Virus record (IMG/VR): IMGVR_UViG_3300035701_000197
Span: 1 to 29,375 of that record
Origin: a virus
Direction: 5' to 3' (one strand)
Length of the DNA: 29,375 nucleotides
The position numbers and the translations under genes are program-made. Under the pieces are notes generated by a model, which searched no databases, had not been told where the DNA came from, and saw only the letters and a program-made list of their open reading frames with translations. This document shows, one piece after another, positions 16,663 through 29,375 of the stretch (positions within the stretch are counted from its first letter, which is position 1; every line of letters begins with the position of its first letter).

Positions 16663-17982
16663 ATGGCTAGTGGAAAAGTTATAGGAGGTCCTTTTGATGA
16701 AAAAGTACTAAAGCAATTAGAAGTAAGAAGTAATCTTATGTCTAAGCCTAATAGAGATGATAACACATTACGTTATCTAGCCTCTAGAACAGGTTGGGTA
16801 AAGATGACCTCTAGCGTACAGTTTAAGGGAGATGATACTTTAGCAAAAAAGTATATACTTATTGGCGGTACTTACGGAAGAGTTGGTGAAAATACATATT
16901 CAACTTTTCGTAATGGAAAAGGATTTAGACCAATGCCAGGTATTACAGGAGTTGATATAAAAGCAATTAATAAATTTGGATTACTAAAAGAAGCTACAAT
17001 AACATACAACTGCTGGGATGTAGGTCAGTTGGAAGAGCTAGAACAACTCTTTATGAGACCGGGATATAGTGTACTACTGGAGTGGGGACATAGTATCTAC
17101 TATACGACAGATAAGAACTACGTTAGTACACCTCAAACAATTACAAGCTTCTTTAAAGCAGGAACTACAAAAGAGCAGCTTTATGATCAAATAGATACAT
17201 TAAAAGAACAGAGCGGGTATAACTACGACGCTATTTATGGTTTTATTAAAAATTTCTCATGGAGCTTTAGAGCAGATGGAGGATATGATTGTGTAACAAC
17301 TCTTACCTCAATTGGAGAAATAATAGAGTCTTTACAGATTGATATAGATAATCCAATAAATGACGGAAGACCGCCAGAAGAGGTAACCAAAAGTACAGAT
17401 GAAATAGTATCTGCTGCTGCTCAAAAAGCAAAAGCACTTGAAAAAAATCCTGAAACTGTAGCGGGTAAAGCAACACCTTTAGAGTACATAGCAATTGGAG
17501 ATTCACAAACAAAGTATTTAGCAGACCACTCATCAGTAGTTAAAATGATTAATGCAGTAGACGGAATACCTTACTTACATAAAACAGGTTGGTTCTTTAA
17601 AGATTTATTATCAGCAGTACAGATATACCCGAAAAGTGATACAGTAAAAGGTATAGTTATCTGTATAGGAACAAATGGAGGTTTTAATAAGAATGACGAT
17701 GTAGTAACATTAAAATTAGCTTTAAATAGAATTTTTCCTAATGCGACAAAACTACTAGTAGTCCAAGGTTCTTGGAACTGGGGTAGTAATATAGCAAAAA
17801 ATAAAGTAACAGCAGAATCAGTAACAGCTTATTACGATTTATATAGAAACGCAGGATTTACAGTATTAAATCCAGCTATTGGGGATATGCTTAAGTACAA
17901 AAAATATGGAGGAGATCCACATAACGGAAAGATCCCTACATATAAAATAATAGGAGAAGGAATAGATAAGTTTATTAAGTAA
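16663..17982 (+). CDS. Baseplate hub-like protein with C-terminal SGNH hydrolase domain
   Basis: 439 residues when started at ATG 16663, one base after the upstream stop; a TTG 14 codons earlier would run into the LysM gene and is rejected. Residues 1-240 look like a baseplate or hub domain (SVQFKGDDTLAKKYILIGG, FGLLKEATITYNCWDVGQLE, MRPGYSVLLEWGHSIYY, GFIKNFSWSFRADGGYDC). After an Ala/Lys linker (about 245-270), residues 272-439 resemble an SGNH/GDSL hydrolase: IAIGDSQT with Ser281 (block I), VICIGTNGG with Asn338 (block III), and GGDPHNG with Asp418/His420 (block V, here DxH not the usual DxxH). It would act as an esterase or deacetylase on surface glycans or peptidoglycan at the tail tip. 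The substrate is unknown. The next gene starts at a TAATG overlap. Confidence 0.7.
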   Translation: MASGKVIGGPFDEKVLKQLEVRSNLMSKPNRDDNTLRYLASRTGWVKMTSSVQFKGDDTLAKKYILIGGTYGRVGENTYSTFRNGKGFRPMPGITGVDIKAINKFGLLKEATITYNCWDVGQLEELEQLFMRPGYSVLLEWGHSIYYTTDKNYVSTPQTITSFFKAGTTKEQLYDQIDTLKEQSGYNYDAIYGFIKNFSWSFRADGGYDCVTTLTSIGEIIESLQIDIDNPINDGRPPEEVTKSTDEIVSAAAQKAKALEKNPETVAGKATPLEYIAIGDSQTKYLADHSSVVKMINAVDGIPYLHKTGWFFKDLLSAVQIYPKSDTVKGIVICIGTNGGFNKNDDVVTLKLALNRIFPNATKLLVVQGSWNWGSNIAKNKVTAESVTAYYDLYRNAGFTVLNPAIGDMLKYKKYGGDPHNGKIPTYKIIGEGIDKFIK

Positions 17983-19943
17983 TGGCAAAAAGTTCAACAT
18001 CACAAACACCTAAAGCTACCCTAGTACAAGCCGTATTAGAGGTCCTAAAAGGTGTACCACAGTGGTCAGTCTTAGAACAAGTATTCCCGGATTTTACAGC
18101 AAAATATGCACTATTAAACAATAGTAAAACGATAGACTCTTTTAGGGTAGGTCTTGCTTCAAATACAGCAGTTACAGGTAAGAACGTAGAAGATGTATGT
18201 CATTACTATATATCACTTAGAGATTTTTGTAGAATAATTAATGCAATACTTCTAGTAGATCAGAATAATAAACCAATAGTACAGATCAATACAAGCACTA
18301 GACCTGCAAACGATGCTACCTCTAAAATTCCAACTAGTAAATACAGAACGTTCGACTACCATATGTCAGCAGATCCAGGAATATGTATCATACCGAATAC
18401 AAATGGTTGGCCAATAACAGATTTTGCTAAAACTACTATGCAGTCTTACACCCAAGGAGACCCTACTGAGATATTAAATATTTTTGTAAATTTTAATTTA
18501 CTAGAAAGTCAGATGAAATCTCTAGTAGATAGTTCAAAAGAACAGAGAACAGTTTACAATTTATTTGATCCAATTTTTGCTGCTATAAACGACGCAATGG
18601 GAGGAATAAATCAACTAGGCTTCCACTATGAGGAATCTCAGCAAACCTTCTACTTGGTCGATAGATCGATTCAAGTTGAGAAAAAAGAAGATATACCTAT
18701 TTTAAATATTACAGGACTTAAATCCTCTGTAACACAGTTTGACTTTACAACAAAACTGTCACCTGCCATTGCAACGATGGTTGCAGTATCTGCACAAGCA
18801 GCAGGGGAAGATGTAGGAATGGAAGCAGAGGCTTTATTTAGATGGAACGAAGGGTTGACAGATAGAATTACAACTAAGAGAAAACAGAGCATAAGCCCGT
18901 CAGGTACCACAGCAGCGGAAAAAGAAGCTACTCATCAAGCAAACCTCAAACTACAACAGGGAAGAATTAATAGTATAACAAAGACTTTAAATACAGTATG
19001 GGTTGATAAAGTATATGACGGTGATGATGTTAAGAATGCAGTAGTACAGTACCAAGCATACACAGCATATTACTTACAATCTTTTAAAGATAAAGCCCCT
19101 TCAGGAGGGCCAGCAGGAATTGTTCCTTTTGAAGTAAGTATAGATATGGACGGTATTTCTGGTATAAAAATTGGACAAGCTTTTCAAATTAATGAAGGAA
19201 TAATGCCTAAAAAGTACTACGGTACAATTGGGTTTATTGTAACAGGGGTAGAGCATTCAATTTCAAACAATAGGTGGACTACTAAACTAAAAGCACAGAC
19301 AATAGTACTTGAAGGATCAGCAGATAAATCAACAGCACCAAATCAAACAGCTAACCCAGTAACAGGAGTTAATACAGAAGAAGAATCAGGTATTAAATCA
19401 AAACCAACCGTAACTCCACCAGACGAGTTAGTAAAAGCTATGAGAGATTACGGTATAACAGATCCAAAAGAAAGAGCACACTTCCTTGCACAATGTGCAC
19501 ACGAATCAGGAGGCTTCAGTACTAAGAAAGAGATCTGGGGTCCAACAGCAGCACAAAAAAACTACGAAGGTAGAAAAACGCTAGGGAATACTGAAACAGG
19601 TGATGGTAAGAAATATAGAGGTAGAGGGTATATACAGCTTACGGGTAGAGCAAATTATACAGCATACAATAAATCACTCCTTGCTAGAGGAATAAAAGAT
19701 GATGTAGTAACAAATCCTGACCTTGTAGCAACTAAATTTGCAGCAGACGCATCTTGTTACTGGTGGAAAAATATAGGAACTGGATTAACAAAACTATCAC
19801 TAGCAGGAACTGCAGACTCGAATGTTAAAAAAGTTTCAACAAGGGTTAACGGAGGATCTCCATCTAACGGAGAATCAGATAGAATAGCAAGATTCAAAGG
19901 ATACTGGGCATCAATCTCAGAAGATAACTCAAAATACGCATAA
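17982..19943 (+). CDS. Baseplate hub protein with C-terminal GH19 lysin domain
   Basis: 653 residues. Residues 1-430 form a hub-like structural part (VLEQVFPDFTAKYALLN, VCHYYISLRDFCRIINAILL, VSIDMDGISGIKIGQAFQIN, YYGTIGFIVTGVEHSISNNR, with WTTKLKAQTIVL), whose last strands resemble the final hub domain of gp27/gpD-like proteins. A Thr/Pro/Asn-rich linker (about 445-475) leads to a glycoside hydrolase family 19 domain: HFLAQCAHESGGFSTKKE with Glu508 and Glu517 as likely catalytic pair, then YRGRGYIQLTGRANYTAYN, the family signature. This is the analogue of the T4 gp5 lysozyme: it opens peptidoglycan during injection. Functional motifs are intact. Starts by TAATG coupling. Confidence 0.85.
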   Translation: MAKSSTSQTPKATLVQAVLEVLKGVPQWSVLEQVFPDFTAKYALLNNSKTIDSFRVGLASNTAVTGKNVEDVCHYYISLRDFCRIINAILLVDQNNKPIVQINTSTRPANDATSKIPTSKYRTFDYHMSADPGICIIPNTNGWPITDFAKTTMQSYTQGDPTEILNIFVNFNLLESQMKSLVDSSKEQRTVYNLFDPIFAAINDAMGGINQLGFHYEESQQTFYLVDRSIQVEKKEDIPILNITGLKSSVTQFDFTTKLSPAIATMVAVSAQAAGEDVGMEAEALFRWNEGLTDRITTKRKQSISPSGTTAAEKEATHQANLKLQQGRINSITKTLNTVWVDKVYDGDDVKNAVVQYQAYTAYYLQSFKDKAPSGGPAGIVPFEVSIDMDGISGIKIGQAFQINEGIMPKKYYGTIGFIVTGVEHSISNNRWTTKLKAQTIVLEGSADKSTAPNQTANPVTGVNTEEESGIKSKPTVTPPDELVKAMRDYGITDPKERAHFLAQCAHESGGFSTKKEIWGPTAAQKNYEGRKTLGNTETGDGKKYRGRGYIQLTGRANYTAYNKSLLARGIKDDVVTNPDLVATKFAADASCYWWKNIGTGLTKLSLAGTADSNVKKVSTRVNGGSPSNGESDRIARFKGYWASISEDNSKYA

Positions 19944-21174: not shown

Positions 21175-21206
21175 AAAGAAAGCTTGCCTGTGCAGGCTTT
21201 TTTTCT
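21175..21206 (+). terminator. Rho-independent terminator closing the tail gene block
   Basis: Stem AGCTTGC (21181-21187) / GCAGGCT (21192-21198) with one G-T pair and loop CTGT, flanked by AAAAGAA and a TTTTTTTCTT tract that extend the pairing. It marks the boundary between structural and replication genes. Confidence 0.85.
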
Positions 21207-21231: not shown

Positions 21232-22557
21232 ATGTTCTATATTATAGAAACAGAGGAGCAAATACAGCTTCTAAAAAATTTAGGTAGGAAAGGAGGGTAT
21301 GTAGGAGTTATTTCTTCAAACGATAACTACCATCCACTTCTAACAACTACCGTAGCAATATACCTAAGGCCTCTAGATCACCACGAAGGATACATTATCC
21401 CAATAAGCCATGACGAAGGATTAAACTTAACAAAAGACTGTGTCTCCGACATATTAAAAGAATACACAACCCTTTATACCTTTGATAAGAAAGAATTGAT
21501 GTATCACTTCATATTGAAGGATGTTATAGATCTTTCCTTGCTTCATTCAATGACTTCCTATAATAGACTTGAACTTCCAAGATCTAATTCAACTTGTAAT
21601 TGGTATTATAATCGCTTTCATGATTTTAAAGAAATAAATGCTATAATTCCAATATCGAAGCTATTTGAAAAATGTGAAGAGAATTATAAGTCTTTAGAGA
21701 AGATATTGCATATTGCAATACCCAATGGCTTTGATTTTTATAATAAAACTGCAACGTCTGTTTTCTTTATGATTGAGAGAGCTGGATTGAGAATAACCTA
21801 CCAATCTTTCTTAGAATTATTTAAACCAAACAATCCTGTTTACAGTATTGATAATAACATTATTTATACTTCATATAATTTATATAATACGACTTCTCGT
21901 CCAACAAATGCTTTTAATTCAGTAAATTTTGCCGCTATTCCAAAAGCACCTGAATTTAGAAAAGCTATTATTCCTCAGAACGATGTATTTGTAGAGATGG
22001 ATTTTGATGGATACCATTTAAGACTATTATGCGAGCAAATTGGATATGAATTAACAGATGAATCTGCACACGTTCAATTAGCAAGACTTTACTTCGGTAA
22101 AGATGAAATAGCTGAGGATGAATATGCAAAAGCAAAGCAAATTAACTTCCATGCCATTTATGGAAAGATTCCACCTGAGTATGCATTTCTTAAAGTATTT
22201 GAAAAAATAGATCAATACATAAAAATGCTTTGGAAACAATTTAATGAACTTGGATATGTAGAAGATCCAGTATCAGGTAAAAGATTCACACAAGATCTTC
22301 CAGATATGCATCCGCAGAAGCTAATGAATTATATGATGCAAAGCTTGGAAACCTCAAGAAACATTCTTATATTAAAAGATGTGCTTATGTTTCTTCAAGA
22401 TAAGAAAAGTAAGTTAACACTTTATACCTACGATGCTTTTATATTTGATTTTGATAAATCAGACGGAAAAGAAACATTAGAGTCTTTAGAAAAAGTAATG
22501 AATCAGGGAGGAAAATATCCTATAAAATTCAAATACAGTAGTAACCTAGTTTTGTAA
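21232..22557 (+). CDS. Divergent family A DNA polymerase-like protein
   Basis: 441 residues, shorter than T7 gp5 (704) or PolI. The C-terminal half keeps the family A order: TTSRPTNAFNSVNFAAIP (TTGRLSS..LQNIP-like), motif A VEMDFDGYHLRLL with Asp257, motif B YAKAKQINFHAIYG with Lys302, Phe306 and Tyr310, and motif C LYTYDAFIFDF with Asp401. Both catalytic aspartates survive, but the motif A Glu is His262, the motif B Arg is Tyr298, and HDE is YDA. The N-terminal half resembles a 3'-5' exonuclease in outline, yet no DxE motif is seen (YVGVISSNDN instead), so proofreading is probably lost. It could be a repair or specialised polymerase, or an inactive replisome part. T4 relatives normally replicate with family B gp43, which is not in this window. 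Confidence 0.75.
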   Translation: MFYIIETEEQIQLLKNLGRKGGYVGVISSNDNYHPLLTTTVAIYLRPLDHHEGYIIPISHDEGLNLTKDCVSDILKEYTTLYTFDKKELMYHFILKDVIDLSLLHSMTSYNRLELPRSNSTCNWYYNRFHDFKEINAIIPISKLFEKCEENYKSLEKILHIAIPNGFDFYNKTATSVFFMIERAGLRITYQSFLELFKPNNPVYSIDNNIIYTSYNLYNTTSRPTNAFNSVNFAAIPKAPEFRKAIIPQNDVFVEMDFDGYHLRLLCEQIGYELTDESAHVQLARLYFGKDEIAEDEYAKAKQINFHAIYGKIPPEYAFLKVFEKIDQYIKMLWKQFNELGYVEDPVSGKRFTQDLPDMHPQKLMNYMMQSLETSRNILILKDVLMFLQDKKSKLTLYTYDAFIFDFDKSDGKETLESLEKVMNQGGKYPIKFKYSSNLVL

Positions 22558-22576: not shown

Positions 22577-23032
22577 ATGATACAAATTAATGTAGCGCCA
22601 ACAATGTTCGATTACGATATCGAATATAATTTTAATGCAGCCGACATGAGCAACAAGTTATTTTGTACATTCTCTTCAGAACAACAACTAGATGAGATTT
22701 TAAGTACAATACAAACTAAATACAAGATCATTTATAATAAAATCTTCGTTCTTTATTCAAAGAGTCAAGATGAATATATCTGTACATATAACGTAGAATT
22801 TGGAAACGTTTCTAATTTCTTAGAGAATACTATTTTAGTTCATAGAAAAAAAGAGTCAAATACCCTATACACAATCAATTCACTAAACCGTCTAATCGAA
22901 TCCTTAAACGGAGGAGTATTAGATACAAACTTCAGAGTAGAGTGGAATGACTATCAAAACTGTATACTATTGACAAAAGGAGCAGAACTAAAGAGAGTCA
23001 ATACAAAATTATTTAGAATAATAGAATTATAG
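22577..23032 (+). CDS. Unknown protein in replication block
   Basis: 151-residue protein with no family that I recognise. It is mixed alpha/beta: FDYDIEYNF, LFCTFSSEQQLDEILSTI, YKIIYNKIFVLYSKSQDEY, ICTYNVEFGN, YTINSLNRLIESLNGG, FRVEWNDYQNCILLTKG. It holds three cysteines (in LFCTF, YICTY and QNCIL) but no metal-binding pair. The start at 22577 directly follows a TATTTATAA element; Met10 at 22604 is an alternative start. It lies between the polymerase-like gene and gp32, a place where T4 relatives carry replication or late-transcription accessory genes, so a role such as helicase loading or transcription coupling is possible but unsupported by motifs. Confidence 0.65.
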   Translation: MIQINVAPTMFDYDIEYNFNAADMSNKLFCTFSSEQQLDEILSTIQTKYKIIYNKIFVLYSKSQDEYICTYNVEFGNVSNFLENTILVHRKKESNTLYTINSLNRLIESLNGGVLDTNFRVEWNDYQNCILLTKGAELKRVNTKLFRIIEL

Positions 23033-23098: not shown

Positions 23099-23950
23099 AT
23101 GGACATTAATGCTATCAAAGCTAAATTGGCCGCTTTAAACAGCACCGGAAATCAAGACCGTGAAAAAGTAGACTTCGATAAGATCTACTGGAAACCAGCA
23201 AACGGAAAATCAACAATCAGAATCGTTCCTTCAGCATTTAATCCTGCGGACCCTTTTACAGAGTTGAAACTACACTACAACATTGGGAAGTTCCCTATGA
23301 TGTCATTGTCGAATTACGGCAAACAAGATCCAATTGAAGAATTCGTAAAAGAATTAAGAAAAACTTCTGACAAAGATAATTGGTCTTTATCTGGAAAGTT
23401 GTCACCTAAGTCTAGATTCTTTGCTCCTGTTATTGTAAGAGGAGAGGAAGAAAAAGGAGTTCGTCTTTGGTCATTCGGAGTTAACATCTACAAAGCATTA
23501 CTTGCTTTAGCAGAAGATGAAGACATCGGAGATTTCACAGACGTAATGAGTGGATGGGATATGGTTGTAGAAAATACACCAGCAGCAGGACCAGGTCAAT
23601 TTCCAACTACAACGGTTCGTATCAAACCAAAACAAACAGTATTATCAGAAGATGATAGTAAAGTAAATGCTTGGTTAAAAGATCAACCAAACGCACTAGA
23701 AGTACAGACTCAGTACGACTATGAATACATCAAGAAAAAATTACAAGAGTACCTAAACCCAGGAGAAGAGGTAGCAACTGCAGCTCCAGTAGCAGCAGAG
23801 TCAATTGCACCAGTATCTACTCCTTCAGCAGAAGCTGAACCAACAGATTTAACAGCAGCTTTAGGAAGTCATAAAACAGACTTTACTTTAGAGACTGCAG
23901 TTGAGGGTAACAAAAGTACAGTAAATAAATTCGACGATTTATTCAAATAA
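23099..23950 (+). CDS. gp32: Single-stranded DNA-binding protein (gp32-like)
   Basis: T4 gp32-type helix-destabilising protein that coats ssDNA during replication, recombination and repair. 283 residues (T4: 301). The N-terminal basic/helical part (MDINAIKAKLAALNS) supports cooperative binding; REKVDFDKIYWKPANGKSTI and RIVPSAFNPADPF open the OB-fold core; DDVMSGWDMVV-type and TTTVRIKPKQTVLSEDDSKV segments complete it. An Ala/Pro/Glu linker (about 222-255) leads to an acidic end KFDDLFK that should recruit partners. The protein has no cysteine at all, so the zinc knuckle of T4 gp32 is absent. It has its own promoter-like element and is followed three bases later by uvsX, its functional partner. 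Confidence 0.92.
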   Translation: MDINAIKAKLAALNSTGNQDREKVDFDKIYWKPANGKSTIRIVPSAFNPADPFTELKLHYNIGKFPMMSLSNYGKQDPIEEFVKELRKTSDKDNWSLSGKLSPKSRFFAPVIVRGEEEKGVRLWSFGVNIYKALLALAEDEDIGDFTDVMSGWDMVVENTPAAGPGQFPTTTVRIKPKQTVLSEDDSKVNAWLKDQPNALEVQTQYDYEYIKKKLQEYLNPGEEVATAAPVAAESIAPVSTPSAEAEPTDLTAALGSHKTDFTLETAVEGNKSTVNKFDDLFK

Positions 23951-23953
23951 GAA

Positions 23954-25033
23954 ATGGCAGTTAAAAAAACAGCCCCTAAGACCGCTAGCGAAATAATCAA
24001 AGGCGGTTTTAGTCTTGATAATTTTAAAAAGAACAAAGGATTTTCAAATACCTCAGTGAAATTTAAAACTCAAGACTGGATTAAAGTTTCAGATGCTTTT
24101 ACAGAAGTAACATCTCTTAAGGGAATTCCTATGGGACATATTACTCTTTTGAGAGGGCATTCGGATACAGGCAAAACTACCTTACTACTAGAAGCAGCAG
24201 TTAATGCTCAAAAACAAGGAATTCTTCCAGTATTTATTATTACTGAGATGAAATGGTCATGGCCACATGCTCAAATGATGGGTCTTGAAGTTGAAGAAGT
24301 AGTTGATGAAGAGACAGGAGAAATAACTGACTATAAAGGATTTTTCTTATACGCTGATAGAGGAACTCTAAACACTATAGAAGACGTAGCAGTTTATATC
24401 TTAGACTTAATCGACGAACAAAAGAAAGGTAATCTTCCTTATGACCTACTATTCTTATGGGATTCAGTTGGATCAGTACCAAGTGACTTATCAGTAAGAT
24501 CAAATAAGAATAATAACGAATGGAATGCTGGAGCAATGTCCACTCAATTCGGAAATAACGTAAATCAAAAAATTATGTTATCAAGAAAAGAAGCAAGCAA
24601 GTATACAAACACTTTAGTAGCTATTAATAAGGTCTGGACTGCAAAACCTGAACATCCAATGGGACAACCTCGATTGGAAAACAAAGGAGGAAAGACTATG
24701 TGGTATGATGCTACAGTTATTATTACTTTTGGAAACATTACTAACTCGGGTACTTCTAAAATCAAAGCTGTAAATAAAGGAAAGGAGTATGAATTTGCTA
24801 AAAGAACTAAAGTTCAAATAGAAAAAAATCATATCGACGGAGTACAATCAAGAGGAGCTATTATTATGACAAGTCATGGATTTATTGCAGATGATAAAAA
24901 AGCAATTGATACCTATAAAGATACTCATAAAGGATCTTGGGCAAACACTCTAGGGTCTACAGACTTTACAGTAACAATAGAGGCCGAAGTAGGAGAAGAT
25001 ATAAGAACCGATATGGAAATGCTCGATGAATAA
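23954..25033 (+). CDS. uvsX: RecA-like recombinase UvsX
   Basis: Phage strand-exchange ATPase that forms filaments on ssDNA and drives recombination-dependent replication. 359 residues, near T4 UvsX (391). Walker A is GHSDTGKTT (68-76) with Lys74; Walker B lies in LLFLWDSVGS with Asp170. WNAGAMSTQFGNNVNQKI and TLVAINKVWTAKPEHPMGQP (L1 region) and KGGKTMWYDATVIITFGN (L2/beta region) fit UvsX. The C-terminus is acidic (EVGEDIRTDMEMLDE). It follows gp32 by three bases and its last codons overlap the nuclease gene by eight bases (ATGAATAA), indicating coupled expression. Confidence 0.94.
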   Translation: MAVKKTAPKTASEIIKGGFSLDNFKKNKGFSNTSVKFKTQDWIKVSDAFTEVTSLKGIPMGHITLLRGHSDTGKTTLLLEAAVNAQKQGILPVFIITEMKWSWPHAQMMGLEVEEVVDEETGEITDYKGFFLYADRGTLNTIEDVAVYILDLIDEQKKGNLPYDLLFLWDSVGSVPSDLSVRSNKNNNEWNAGAMSTQFGNNVNQKIMLSRKEASKYTNTLVAINKVWTAKPEHPMGQPRLENKGGKTMWYDATVIITFGNITNSGTSKIKAVNKGKEYEFAKRTKVQIEKNHIDGVQSRGAIIMTSHGFIADDKKAIDTYKDTHKGSWANTLGSTDFTVTIEAEVGEDIRTDMEMLDE

Positions 25034-26048
25034 TTATTTAGACATACTAAATAAAATCGAACAAAAACCAGACAGAAAACTAAACGACCATGTTTTAATT
25101 GTAGATAGCATGAATACCTTTATAAGGTCTTTTGCAATGCTACAAGCAATGAATCCCCAAGGCCATCACACCGGTGGTCTTGTTGGTTTCTTGAGATCGT
25201 TGGGATTCTTGATGAGAACAATTGACCCTACTAGAATTATTTGTGTGTTTGACGGACAAGCTTCTTCCTCAAGTAGAAAGAGTATTGATCCTGAATACAA
25301 AGCAAATAGAAATATTAAGAGGATTACCAATTGGGAAATATTCGATGATAAAGATGATGAATTCCAAAGCATGACAATGCAAATGGGACGATTGGTTGAG
25401 TACCTACAATGCTTACCTCTAACTCTAATCTCTATTGATAAGATAGAAGCAGATGATACTATATCTTACCTATCTCAGAAATTTGGAGCTAATAATAAAA
25501 AGGTAACAATTGTTTCTTCTGATAAAGATTTTCTTCAGATAGTAGATGAAAACATTGAAGTTTATTCCCCTATCAAGAAAAAAACTTATGGAAAAAAAGA
25601 GGTACAGGAAGAAATAGGTTTACTTCCTGAGAATTATTTAGTTATGAAAGCATTACTAGGTGATAACTCAGACAACCTTACAGGGATAAAAGGGTTAGGA
25701 CCTAAAACACTTTTAAAAGAGTTTCCAGGACTAGTAAAAGATCCTTTATTTGATTTAATCGATATTCATAAAATTTGTAATGAAAAATTACAGACTAAGA
25801 AAATATTCGCACAAATACTGTATGATTGGAAAAAAGTAAAAACTAACTATGATTTGATGAATCTTTTAGAGCCGAGGTTGGGAGATTACGAAATAGTTCA
25901 TATATTAGATAAGATAAAAGAGCCAACACCTGCTCTACAGGCAGTTACTTTTTTAAATATGTTAGAGGCAGATCAAATCGAAGCTCTAAACAAAAACGTT
26001 GAAGGATGGTTAGAAATATTCAGACCGCTTTCAACATATAAAAAATAA
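25026..26048 (+). CDS. rnh: 5'-3' exonuclease / RNase H (T4 Rnh-like FEN)
   Basis: Flap endonuclease-family 5' nuclease that removes lagging-strand RNA primers. 340 residues (T4 RNase H: 305). Metal-binding acidic residues are visible in order: IVDSMNTF with Asp27, ICVFDGQ, KIEADDTISYL with Glu141, Asp143 and Asp144, VSSDKDFLQIV with Asp166 and Asp168, and LLGDNSDNLTGIKGLGPKTL with Asp213 and Asp216 followed by the helix-hairpin-helix. All key residues are present, so it should be active. The start ATG lies inside the last codons of uvsX; the gp41 helicase gene follows after 20 bases. Confidence 0.92.
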   Translation: MNNYLDILNKIEQKPDRKLNDHVLIVDSMNTFIRSFAMLQAMNPQGHHTGGLVGFLRSLGFLMRTIDPTRIICVFDGQASSSSRKSIDPEYKANRNIKRITNWEIFDDKDDEFQSMTMQMGRLVEYLQCLPLTLISIDKIEADDTISYLSQKFGANNKKVTIVSSDKDFLQIVDENIEVYSPIKKKTYGKKEVQEEIGLLPENYLVMKALLGDNSDNLTGIKGLGPKTLLKEFPGLVKDPLFDLIDIHKICNEKLQTKKIFAQILYDWKKVKTNYDLMNLLEPRLGDYEIVHILDKIKEPTPALQAVTFLNMLEADQIEALNKNVEGWLEIFRPLSTYKK

Positions 26049-26068: not shown

Positions 26069-27421
26069 ATGACATCATTAGCAAAACTATCTTCCTACGG
26101 AAAAGGGTTCCAATTAAAAGTATTGGGAGCATTATTAACAGACAAAAAATTCTTGCTTAACACAAGAGATTTACTACGACCAGATTATTTTGATTCAGAT
26201 GCTCATAAATGGATTCTAGAAACTACTATCAAGTATTATGATAAGTATCATACTACAATTTCTTTAGAAGCATTAAAAATCGAATTACAAAAAGTAGAGA
26301 ACGATATTCTACAAGTAGCAGTTAAATTAGAATTGAGAAATTGTTATGAAGCAACTCAAGAAGATCTAGCATACGTTGTAGAGGAGTTTACTACCTTTGC
26401 CAAAAACCAAGAACTTAAAGCAGCATTACTAAACTCAGCAGATCTATTAAACCAAGGAGACTTTGATGGAATTAGAGGATTGATTGAAAGAGCTATGAGA
26501 GCTGGTATGGATAAGAATATGGGTCATGAGTATAATAAAGATGTAGAGAGCCGTTATAGAGAAAACTACAGACCAACTATTCCAACACCTTGGCCAATAA
26601 TGAACGAAACCATTGGAGGAGGATTCGGACCTGGAGATTTAATTATTATGTTCGGTAATCCAGGAGGAGGAAAGTCTTGGACGATGGTAGCAGCAGCAGC
26701 TCATGCAGTTCTAATGGGGTATAATGTAAATTACTATACCTTAGAATTAGGAGAAGATTATGTAGGGAAGCGATTTGATTGTTACTTTACAGGATACGGA
26801 ATCGAAGAAGTAAACAAACATAGACCAGAAGTTGAGAAGATTGTAGGTAAGTTGAAAGGAAAACTAATTGTAAAAGAATATCCACCAAAAGGCGCTTCAA
26901 TCAATACAATTAAATCTCATATTCAGAAATGTATTGATATGGATCATAAACCAGATATGATTGTTATTGATTATGTCGATTATTTGAAAGCACCTTCGAA
27001 ATCTCGTTTCACAGAGAGAAAAGACGAAATAGATGATGTATTCATTGCAACAAAAGGATTAGCTAAGGAATTACAAATCCCTATTCTAACACCATCTCAA
27101 GTTAATAGAATGGGAGCAAAGGATTCTGTTATTGAAGGAGATAAGGCAGCAGGTTCTTACGATAAGATGATGGTAGCAGATGTTTGTTTATCTCTATCAA
27201 GAATGAAAGAAGATAAGGTCTTAGGGACAGGAAGAATTCACGTTATGAAGAACAGATACGGAATGGACGGAATGACTTGGGATGCAAAAGTCGATACAAA
27301 TAATGGTCATATTGAGATTCTAGGTAACATGTTAATAGACGAATCAGGAGACAAGCAAAGAGGGAGTTACAAAGATATTGCTAATAAGTTCTTCGAATTA
27401 GAGTCTCAAGTTCCATTCTAA
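26069..27421 (+). CDS. gp41: Replicative DNA helicase (gp41 / DnaB-like)
   Basis: Hexameric 5'-3' helicase of the replisome, DnaB superfamily 4. 450 residues (T4 gp41: 475). Residues 1-150 form the helical N-terminal domain (FQLKVLGALLTDKKFLLNTR, DYFDSDAHKWILE). The RecA-like motor has Walker A GNPGGGKSW (196-204, Lys202), YTLELGEDYVGKRFD, Walker B MIVIDYVDYLKAP with Asp301, and the sensor segment LQIPILTPSQVNRMGAKDS. RIHVMKNRYGMDGMTWDAKV is the arginine-finger-containing region near the C-terminus. Preceded by TTATAATAAAATAA (26050-26063), which is identical to the 3' part of the tube-gene promoter element. Confidence 0.94.
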   Translation: MTSLAKLSSYGKGFQLKVLGALLTDKKFLLNTRDLLRPDYFDSDAHKWILETTIKYYDKYHTTISLEALKIELQKVENDILQVAVKLELRNCYEATQEDLAYVVEEFTTFAKNQELKAALLNSADLLNQGDFDGIRGLIERAMRAGMDKNMGHEYNKDVESRYRENYRPTIPTPWPIMNETIGGGFGPGDLIIMFGNPGGGKSWTMVAAAAHAVLMGYNVNYYTLELGEDYVGKRFDCYFTGYGIEEVNKHRPEVEKIVGKLKGKLIVKEYPPKGASINTIKSHIQKCIDMDHKPDMIVIDYVDYLKAPSKSRFTERKDEIDDVFIATKGLAKELQIPILTPSQVNRMGAKDSVIEGDKAAGSYDKMMVADVCLSLSRMKEDKVLGTGRIHVMKNRYGMDGMTWDAKVDTNNGHIEILGNMLIDESGDKQRGSYKDIANKFFELESQVPF

Positions 27422-27474: not shown

Positions 27475-28452
27475 ATGAGTTTAAAAGACGAACGCATAGT
27501 CTACAAGCCCTTTGAATACCCACAAGCACACGATTACTGGCTAAAAGCACACCAAGCTCATTGGTTACATACAGAAGTTCCAATGTCGCAAGACGTAACA
27601 GATTGGAATTCGAACCTTAAACCGCATGAAAAAAATGTTATAGGAGGAATCTTAAAAGGATTTGCTCAAACAGAAACAGTTGTAAATGATTACTGGACAT
27701 CTTTAGTGACAAAATGGTTTAGGAAGCCTGAAATTATTATGATGGCAGTCACTTTTGGAGCTTTTGAAACAATCCATGCTGAAGCATATGCTTTACTAAA
27801 CGAACAATTAGGATTAGATAATTTTGCAGAATTTCTAGAAGACGAATCAACTGCAGCTAAAATCCAATCTTTAATGGATGTTCGTGATGGAAATGCAGGG
27901 GAAACAGATTGGCATGAAGCAGCTAGGTCTCTAGCAATATTCTCAGCATTTACCGAAGGAGTAAACCTATTCTCTTCTTTTGCAGTTCTGTTATCATTTA
28001 AAATGAGAAATAAACTAAAAGGAGTAGGACAAATAGTTGAATGGTCTGTAAGAGATGAATCACTTCACTCAGAAGCAGGATGCTGGTTATTCAGAGAACT
28101 AATGAATGAGTATCCTGAATTAAAAACAGAAAAACTTATTAAGGACATCGAAGAAGCAGCAACTCTTGCTCTTCAATTAGAATTTAATTTTATTGATAAG
28201 ATCTTCGAAATGGGAGATTTAGAGAATTTATCTAAGAATGAACTAAAAAACTTTATTAAACACAGAGTAAACACTAAGATGGGAGATTTAGGATTAAAAC
28301 CTTTAATACCTTCAGATCAAATCGATAAAGGAGCTTTAAAACAAATGTTATGGTTTGATGCAGTAGTTGCAGGTAAACAACATACAGATTTTTTCGCATC
28401 AAGAGTAACGAATTATGCCAAAGGGCATATGGATTGGGACAACGCATTTTAA
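27475..28452 (+). CDS. nrdB: Class I ribonucleotide reductase, small (beta) subunit
   Basis: NrdB supplies the radical that lets NrdA reduce ribonucleotides to deoxyribonucleotides, feeding phage DNA synthesis. 325 residues. Metal-site residues in order: Glu67 (AQTETVV), Glu98 and His101 (FETIHAEAY), Glu161 (FTEGVNLF), Glu195 and His198 (RDESLHSEAG). The first ligand is Glu, where E. coli NrdB has Asp84. Tyr105 in ETIHAEAY matches the radical tyrosine (E. coli Tyr122), so a canonical tyrosyl-radical enzyme is expected. nrdA follows after nine bases, so both subunits are co-transcribed. Confidence 0.95.
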   Translation: MSLKDERIVYKPFEYPQAHDYWLKAHQAHWLHTEVPMSQDVTDWNSNLKPHEKNVIGGILKGFAQTETVVNDYWTSLVTKWFRKPEIIMMAVTFGAFETIHAEAYALLNEQLGLDNFAEFLEDESTAAKIQSLMDVRDGNAGETDWHEAARSLAIFSAFTEGVNLFSSFAVLLSFKMRNKLKGVGQIVEWSVRDESLHSEAGCWLFRELMNEYPELKTEKLIKDIEEAATLALQLEFNFIDKIFEMGDLENLSKNELKNFIKHRVNTKMGDLGLKPLIPSDQIDKGALKQMLWFDAVVAGKQHTDFFASRVTNYAKGHMDWDNAF

Positions 28453-28461
28453 TTTAATTTT

Positions 28462-29375
28462 ATGGGAGTAGATTACAGTACCTGGAAATCCGGTGTGGAT
28501 TATCCAGAGTGGATGAACGAAGTATCTTTGGCTACAATTTCAAATGGGTATTTATTACCTGATGAGAATCCAAAGAAAGCTTACAAGAGAGTTGCTGATG
28601 CAGTAGCTAAGAGATTAGATCGTCCTGATCTAGCAAATAAATTTTTTAAATATATGTGGAAGGGTTGGTTAAACCTAGCTTCACCTGTATTATCAAACAC
28701 TGGAACTGATAAAGGATTACCAATCTCATGTTTCGGTATAGATACTCCTGATTCAATCAGAGGTATAGGATTAACTAATGCAGAACTGATGAGACTTACC
28801 TCTTTAGGAGGAGGAGTTGGAATTGGATTAGGTAGAGTTAGAGGAAGAGGAAAGAAGATCGCAAATGGCGATACAGGTAACTCAGAAGGAATAGTACCTT
28901 GGGCTAAGATTTATGATTCAACTATCATTGCTACAAATCAAGGATCAGTTCGTAGAGGAGCAGCTTCAGTAAACCTAGATATTAATCACGAAGATATAAA
29001 AGAGTTTTTACGTATCAGAAGACCTCAAGGAGATCCAAACCGTCAGTGTTTAAATTTACACCAATGTGTTTCTATTGATGATAAATTTATGCAGAGATTA
29101 GAGCATAGAGATCCAGAAGCAATGGAACTATGGGTTGAGATTCTCAAGTCCAGAGTTGAAACAGGAGAACCTTATATTATGTTTAAGGATAATGTTAATA
29201 ACGCTAACCCGCAAGCATACGTAAAGAATAACTTAGATGTAACAATGACTAATATCTGTTCGGAGATTGCATTACATACTGACGAAGAGCATTCATTTGT
29301 ATGCTGTTTATCTTCTTTAAATATTACAAGATATGATGAGTGGAAAGATACTGACTCAGTTGAGACAGCAATTTA
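28462..29375 (+). CDS. nrdA: Class I ribonucleotide reductase, large (alpha) subunit, 3'-truncated
   Basis: The frame runs open from ATG 28462 to the window end (304 codons), so the C-terminal part lies outside. NrdA binds nucleotide substrates and carries the active-site thiols. Visible catalytic features: LPISCFG with Cys90 (E. coli Cys225), TNICSEIALH with Asn264, Cys266 and Glu268 (Asn437, Cys439, Glu441), and FVCCLSSLN with Cys281 (Cys462). A Gly-rich LTSLGGGVGIGLGRVRGRGK precedes the catalytic barrel. The first catalytic Cys is only 90 residues from the start, so the N-terminal ATP-cone that senses dATP is absent. Follows nrdB by nine bases without a Shine-Dalgarno sequence. Confidence 0.95.
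   Translation, partial: MGVDYSTWKSGVDYPEWMNEVSLATISNGYLLPDENPKKAYKRVADAVAKRLDRPDLANKFFKYMWKGWLNLASPVLSNTGTDKGLPISCFGIDTPDSIRGIGLTNAELMRLTSLGGGVGIGLGRVRGRGKKIANGDTGNSEGIVPWAKIYDSTIIATNQGSVRRGAASVNLDINHEDIKEFLRIRRPQGDPNRQCLNLHQCVSIDDKFMQRLEHRDPEAMELWVEILKSRVETGEPYIMFKDNVNNANPQAYVKNNLDVTMTNICSEIALHTDEEHSFVCCLSSLNITRYDEWKDTDSVETAI

Follow-up and report, generated by a model that had tools for sequence, protein, structure and literature searches.

divPolA1, a family A polymerase-like protein with a reduced thumb and a fixed set of active-site replacements, in the replication module of T4-like aquatic phages

The divPolA1 locus and its replication module

The window, i.e., the whole 29,375-nucleotide stretch of DNA analyzed here, is a 29-kb virus fragment related to Flavobacterium phage vB_FspM_immuto (160 kb, genus Immutovirus; hereafter, immuto). 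Downstream of tail and baseplate genes, it contains an ORF encoding a 441-aa protein that is 93% identical to immuto gp001 over residues 1-441 (Table 1). This first gene of immuto is annotated as DNA polymerase family A, and its family was named divPolA1 in 2024, with members in 14 phages including immuto (PMC11348598; Virol J 2024;21:200). It is nearly certain that the window ORF belongs to divPolA1. The terminator-like hairpin that separates this ORF from the upstream tail gene is the single consensus match, a number to be read against the approximately one match that shuffled sequence yields by chance. Further upstream, a baseplate-region protein (positions 17982-19943) carries a C-terminal glycoside hydrolase family 19 (chitinase/lysozyme-like) domain (E=1.2e-7), and is probably a tail-associated cell-wall enzyme.

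Table 1. Positions of divPolA1, its motifs and domains, and the neighboring features in the window
Feature	Position	Strand	Details
Hairpin resembling an intrinsic terminator, between the tail gene upstream and divPolA1	21175..21204	+	13-pair stem, loop of 4, T-run
divPolA1, short family A polymerase-like protein, 441 aa	21232..22557	+	ATG at 21232, stop at 22557
Vestigial 3'-5' exonuclease-like domain, residues 1-110, DxE lost	21232..21561	+	Pol I alignment and fold match
Location of the Pol I thumb, residues 182-223, reduced to 23-41 residues family-wide	21775..21900	+	Segment lengths
Motif A (DFDGYHLR), residues 257-264; Asp257 kept, His262 in place of Glu710	22000..22023	+	D257, D259 and H262 in 82/82
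Motif B (O helix), residues 298-311; Tyr298 in place of Arg754, Lys302 and Tyr310 kept	22123..22164	+	Y298, K302, Y310 and G311 in 82/82
Motif C, residues 400-402 (YDA); His881 replaced by Tyr400, Asp401 kept	22429..22437	+	Y400 in 81/82, D401 in 80/82
151-aa protein, function unassigned, constant module member	22577..23032	+	68/70 divPolA1 loci
gp32-type single-strand DNA binding protein (SSB)	23099..23950	+	Pfam gp32, E=1.6e-10
UvsX/RecA-type recombinase	23954..25033	+	PHROG 97, E=2.3e-16
5'-3' exonuclease/flap nuclease (T4 RNase H or Pol I N-domain type)	25026..26048	+	Pfam 5_3_exonuc_N, E=2.8e-33
DnaB/gp41-type replicative helicase	26069..27421	+	PHROG 19, E=1.4e-77
NrdB, ribonucleotide reductase small subunit, adjoining the module	27475..28452	+	Pfam, E=1.3e-63
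NrdA, ribonucleotide reductase large subunit, running off the window end	28462..29375	+	Pfam Ribonuc_red_lgC, E=1.5e-51

The original prediction, made from the sequence of the window, placed the ORF in a T4-type replication block, and the downstream genes bear this out: those for a gp32-like SSB, a UvsX/RecA-type recombinase, a 5'-3' exonuclease and a DnaB-type helicase are followed by those for NrdB and then NrdA. The same order on one strand is found throughout the family. When only loci with enough DNA are counted, divPolA1 is followed by the small protein in 68/70 loci, SSB in 50/53, RecA in 44/47, the 5'-3' exonuclease in 35/36 and the helicase in 31/31; NrdA was left out of these counts. 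With the small protein as query, divPolA1 lies upstream of it in all 33 loci that have at least 4 kb of upstream DNA. A control search seeded with the flap nuclease recovered the whole module in 19/19 loci, indicating that the pair of the small protein and divPolA1 is no tighter than the module itself; the idea of a specially tight pair was thus rejected. The module behaves as a single unit.

The small protein has a mixed alpha/beta AlphaFold2 model (pLDDT 83) and invariant HxK and N-x2-YTxN-x2-N residues. It matched no PHROG or PDB sequence family, and a fold search gave only weak matches (Z <7), among them the SV40 T-antigen origin-binding domain (Z ~6.5), as well as a match to one uncharacterised phage protein; none of these is relied on here.

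Fold, active-site residues and family of divPolA1

The ORF product had been predicted to be a shortened family A polymerase-like protein, and the Pfam match, a joint alignment and the predicted fold all agree with this assignment. Pfam DNA_pol_A (PF00476) matches residues 207-428 (E=1.4e-9; 37.9 bits against a curated cut-off of 34.3). The fold, on which the original prediction let its assignment depend, is that of the Pol I large fragment in the AlphaFold2 model (pLDDT 93.2, pTM 0.90). The best fold match in the PDB is M. smegmatis Pol1 (Z 27.5, 406 residues, rmsd 3.6), with the Bst large fragment just behind, and Pol I large fragments including the exonuclease domain match over residues 1-441 (Z ~27). 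In sequence searches, PHROGs gave no match for the 441-aa window protein, and the divPolA1 family profile matched no PDB chain. The model and its fold match indicate a resemblance to family A polymerases far beyond chance.

Residues were mapped in an alignment that also included E. coli Pol I, T7 gp5 and further PolAs from phages, with E. coli Pol I numbering; two sequences in wrong reading frames (L318 and L319) were excluded. As predicted, both catalytic Asp residues are kept, D257 and D401 mapping onto D705 and D882, respectively. The residues that contact the primer, the template and the nucleotide (R668, K758, F762, Y766, N845 and Q849) are all retained, as R223, K302, F306, Y310, N366 and Q370, respectively. 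The substitutions pointed out in the original prediction are likewise recovered: H262 of motif A lies on E710, Y298 of motif B lies on R754, and Y400-D401-A402 lies on H881-D882-E883, the HDE sequence of motif C. All 15 ordinary PolAs compared have E, R and H at positions 710, 754 and 881, respectively. Ordinary phage PolAs do vary at the third HDE position, where Q, S or E occurs, and so A402 is a weak oddity. This leaves the replacements at E710, R754 and H881 as the only true departures in the catalytic motifs. divPolA1 has the residues that characterize the family A superfamily (two catalytic Asp, and Lys302 and Tyr310 of the O helix), and departs from a canonical replicative or proofreading PolA, with its full thumb and active 3'-5' exonuclease, in the His/Tyr/Tyr replacements and in the absence of the thumb and the exonuclease DxE.

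E. coli Pol I has a thumb segment of 127 residues and other phage PolAs have one of 191-237, whereas that of divPolA1 is 23-41 residues long. The fingers, measured between Y766 and the motif C Asp, are also shorter (91 vs 116 residues). The loss of DxE, also noted in the original prediction, is seen in the alignment with Pol I, in which the equivalent strand reads VISSND. In the sequence alignment, exonuclease motif III D501 has no counterpart and the motif II Asp position corresponds to D85. Bst Pol I likewise has a vestigial exonuclease domain, to which that of divPolA1 can be likened. Overall, divPolA1 is similar to E. coli Pol I in whole-length fold, catalytic Asp and contact residues, but differs in the thumb, the fingers and the three pocket residues, and in that the 5'-3' nuclease is encoded by a separate gene.

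A profile scan of IMG/VR identified at least 585 divPolA1 loci. Among 82 members with <90% identity to each other, pairwise identity is 31% at the median and 20% at the minimum. Thirty-three of the 441 columns are at least 95% conserved, and these include 11 of the 12 known active-site positions (hypergeometric p ~8e-13); R223 and Q370 are invariant. Conservation of active-site columns at such a low median identity points to purifying selection. As the altered residues are invariant together with the catalytic residues, they are a family signature rather than decay, and the possibility of a decayed gene is ruled out by the invariant active-site columns. In one relative (L323; contig G037, 146109-147437), a 466-aa frame contains an in-frame TAG, which may reflect stop-codon reassignment, an extension of the frame or an error.

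In a tree with other PolAs, divPolA1 forms one clade with a long stem and 100/100 support, with long branches that leave its exact place among PolAs unsure. A recent duplication of the phage's own large PolA was rejected, as the two form separate clades with 100/100 support. A host-derived gene was also rejected: when 84,980 bacterial and archaeal species were searched, matches were confined to one contig in one metagenome-assembled genome, and thus divPolA1 looks phage-restricted. A search seeded with a large metagenomic relative (L086) alone yielded nothing new.

The original prediction considered, among other options, a new polymerase subfamily or a repair enzyme. This holds in substance in that the family is one long-stem clade with its own invariant signature, but the family had already been described as divPolA1 (PMC11348598). 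In that description, divPolA1 is a PolA that supplements a regular polymerase, which may belong to family A, B or C; its palm residues are kept, its thumb is truncated, its exonuclease is inactivated and its replication neighborhood is conserved. The published reading of its activity and exonuclease loss agrees with the present one (PMC11348598). The window protein and immuto divPolA1 are alike in homology, downstream replication genes, truncated thumb and palm residues, and the window protein shows no difference of substance from the published family. The text of PMC11348598 contains no discussion of the His/Tyr/Tyr replacements or of mechanism, and in a literature search the name divPolA1 was used only by that paper and its preprint. 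The family itself had thus been published, and what is added here is the locus count (at least 585 IMG/VR loci vs 14 phages), the invariance of the replacements, the thumb lengths, and the constancy of the module with a varying partner polymerase.

Partner polymerases in divPolA1 genomes

divPolA1 is the sole PolA in the window record. In immuto, a second, complete PolA (KNV73_gp199, 777 aa) with exonuclease and polymerase domains starts ~37 kb downstream of divPolA1. The two proteins belong to the same superfamily and occur in the same genomes, but KNV73_gp199 differs from divPolA1 in its length, its exonuclease domain, its canonical E710/R754/H881 and its separate clade, and is no recent paralogue. 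A full PolA is present in 11/13 immuto-type records, immuto itself included. In the other two (G006 and G013), divPolA1 is only ~4 kb and 25 kb, respectively, from the downstream contig end, which is too near to hold the PolA gene, and hence these are no real exceptions. Among 16 records chosen by their large PolA, 10 also encode divPolA1.

Distant relatives have other partners. PolB is encoded in two distant divPolA1 genomes, the 484-kb LR756508 and Microcystis phage Mel-JY01. PolB is also found in 4/15 and PolC in 1/15 further divPolA1 records, many of which are short fragments, and PolB in 9/9 additional records. In LR756508.1 (260623-266900), PolB matches in pieces, with frames of 1022 and 625 aa lying ~4 kb apart, for which a split gene, an intein and an intron are candidate explanations.

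The presence of a separate full polymerase suggests that divPolA1 is an addition rather than a fragment or a replacement, and that the main polymerase varies. The original prediction had noted that T4 relatives normally use the family B enzyme gp43, which is right for most of the wider divPolA1 family but not for the window's own clade, in which a full PolA replaces gp43. It had also proposed a search for gp43 or a second PolA fragment: the second PolA of immuto turned out to be complete, and distant relatives to have a full gp43-type PolB or a PolC. These results refute another of its suggestions, a split polymerase with divPolA1 as one part and the remaining half encoded elsewhere. Such a split would be consistent with the short length and absent thumb; however, the other family A gene of immuto is complete, which rules out a split for a PolA half, and the distant relatives pair divPolA1 with PolB or PolC, making this explanation extremely improbable.

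By its description, barbavirus divPolA2 is, like divPolA1, an extra, exonuclease-less and thumb-altered PolA beside a regular polymerase, and, unlike divPolA1, it has a variable gene neighborhood and an unrelated N-terminal domain (PMC11348598). As a separate observation, immuto genes annotated QueC, QueD, QueE, FolE, QueF and DpdA (NC_055915.1, 18607-37015) suggest 7-deazaguanine-modified DNA, which is possibly relevant to the substrate of the immuto polymerases.

Possible roles of divPolA1

The likeliest role, for which we consider the chances about even, is that of an accessory polymerase that fills gaps together with the neighboring flap nuclease, in a distributive manner and without proofreading. 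In this view, a large lineage of T4-like aquatic phages would have divPolA1 as an accessory DNA polymerase of family A. We infer that it is catalytically active, because residues of this kind are not retained in enzymes that have lost their function. The thumb of Pol I grips the primer-template, and divPolA1 would accordingly have low processivity. Against this role, a thumbless polymerase should bind the primer-template poorly unless a partner helps. Also against it, R754 of Pol I contacts the triphosphate of the incoming nucleotide, and its universal loss in divPolA1 could mean weak or altered dNTP use. In the cell, Pol I carries out short-patch synthesis, with polymerase and nuclease activities in one chain. 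The phage would carry this function as separate polymerase and nuclease genes, and would leave bulk replication to the large PolA, PolB or PolC. Together with the 5'-3' flap nuclease and SSB, divPolA1 might fill Okazaki gaps or perform recombination-repair synthesis in short patches, a more specific role at which only the gene neighborhood hints. Constancy of the module while the main polymerase family changes fits a job that is independent of the particular replicative enzyme.

A different emphasis on the pocket would make divPolA1 an active enzyme with a changed substrate, such as ribonucleotides or damaged or modified nucleotides, i.e., a primer-making, RNA-incorporating or lesion-bypass enzyme depending on the His/Tyr pocket. 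The steric-gate residue E710 reportedly excludes ribonucleotides in Klenow (Astatke et al. 1998 PNAS). In contrast to the ordinary PolAs, all 82 members have His at this position and Tyr in place of R754, and 81 of the 82 have Tyr in place of H881. That these replacements are coordinated and fixed suggests that a new property has been selected for. Single-subunit RNA polymerases also share a superfamily with family A polymerases. However, His is bulky and may still exclude the 2'-OH, immuto has its own DnaG-type primase, and RNA polymerases are absent from the best 50 structural matches to the divPolA1 model, although this says only that the closest relatives of divPolA1 are DNA polymerases. 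We regard a changed substrate as possible but less likely than the gap-filling role. It is unlikely that divPolA1 represents a new functional class of thumbless enzyme, in which the fixed His/Tyr/Tyr pocket would take a non-standard substrate and a module partner, e.g., the 151-aa protein, would provide the grip on DNA.

Loss of the thumb and the exonuclease DxE, replacement of R754 and E710, and the constant company of helicase, SSB and recombinase might also be explained if divPolA1 does not polymerize, and binds primer-template or nucleotides as a structural or regulatory subunit of the replisome. Pseudoenzymes normally lose metal-binding and contact residues first, but at 31% median identity the metal-binding Asp pair, K758, Y766, R668 and Q849 show little or no variation, and a non-catalytic role is quite unlikely.

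The constant place of divPolA1 in the module has implications for phage replication. To our knowledge, T4 does without an additional enzyme of this kind, a point that also counts against the accessory role. An extra polymerase kept at the module head in a very common aquatic phage lineage, while the main polymerase changes between families A, B and C, would point to a replication step that T4 manages without it. The invariant pocket replacements lead to specific predictions about nucleotide choice, and divPolA1 may serve as a compact natural tool polymerase.
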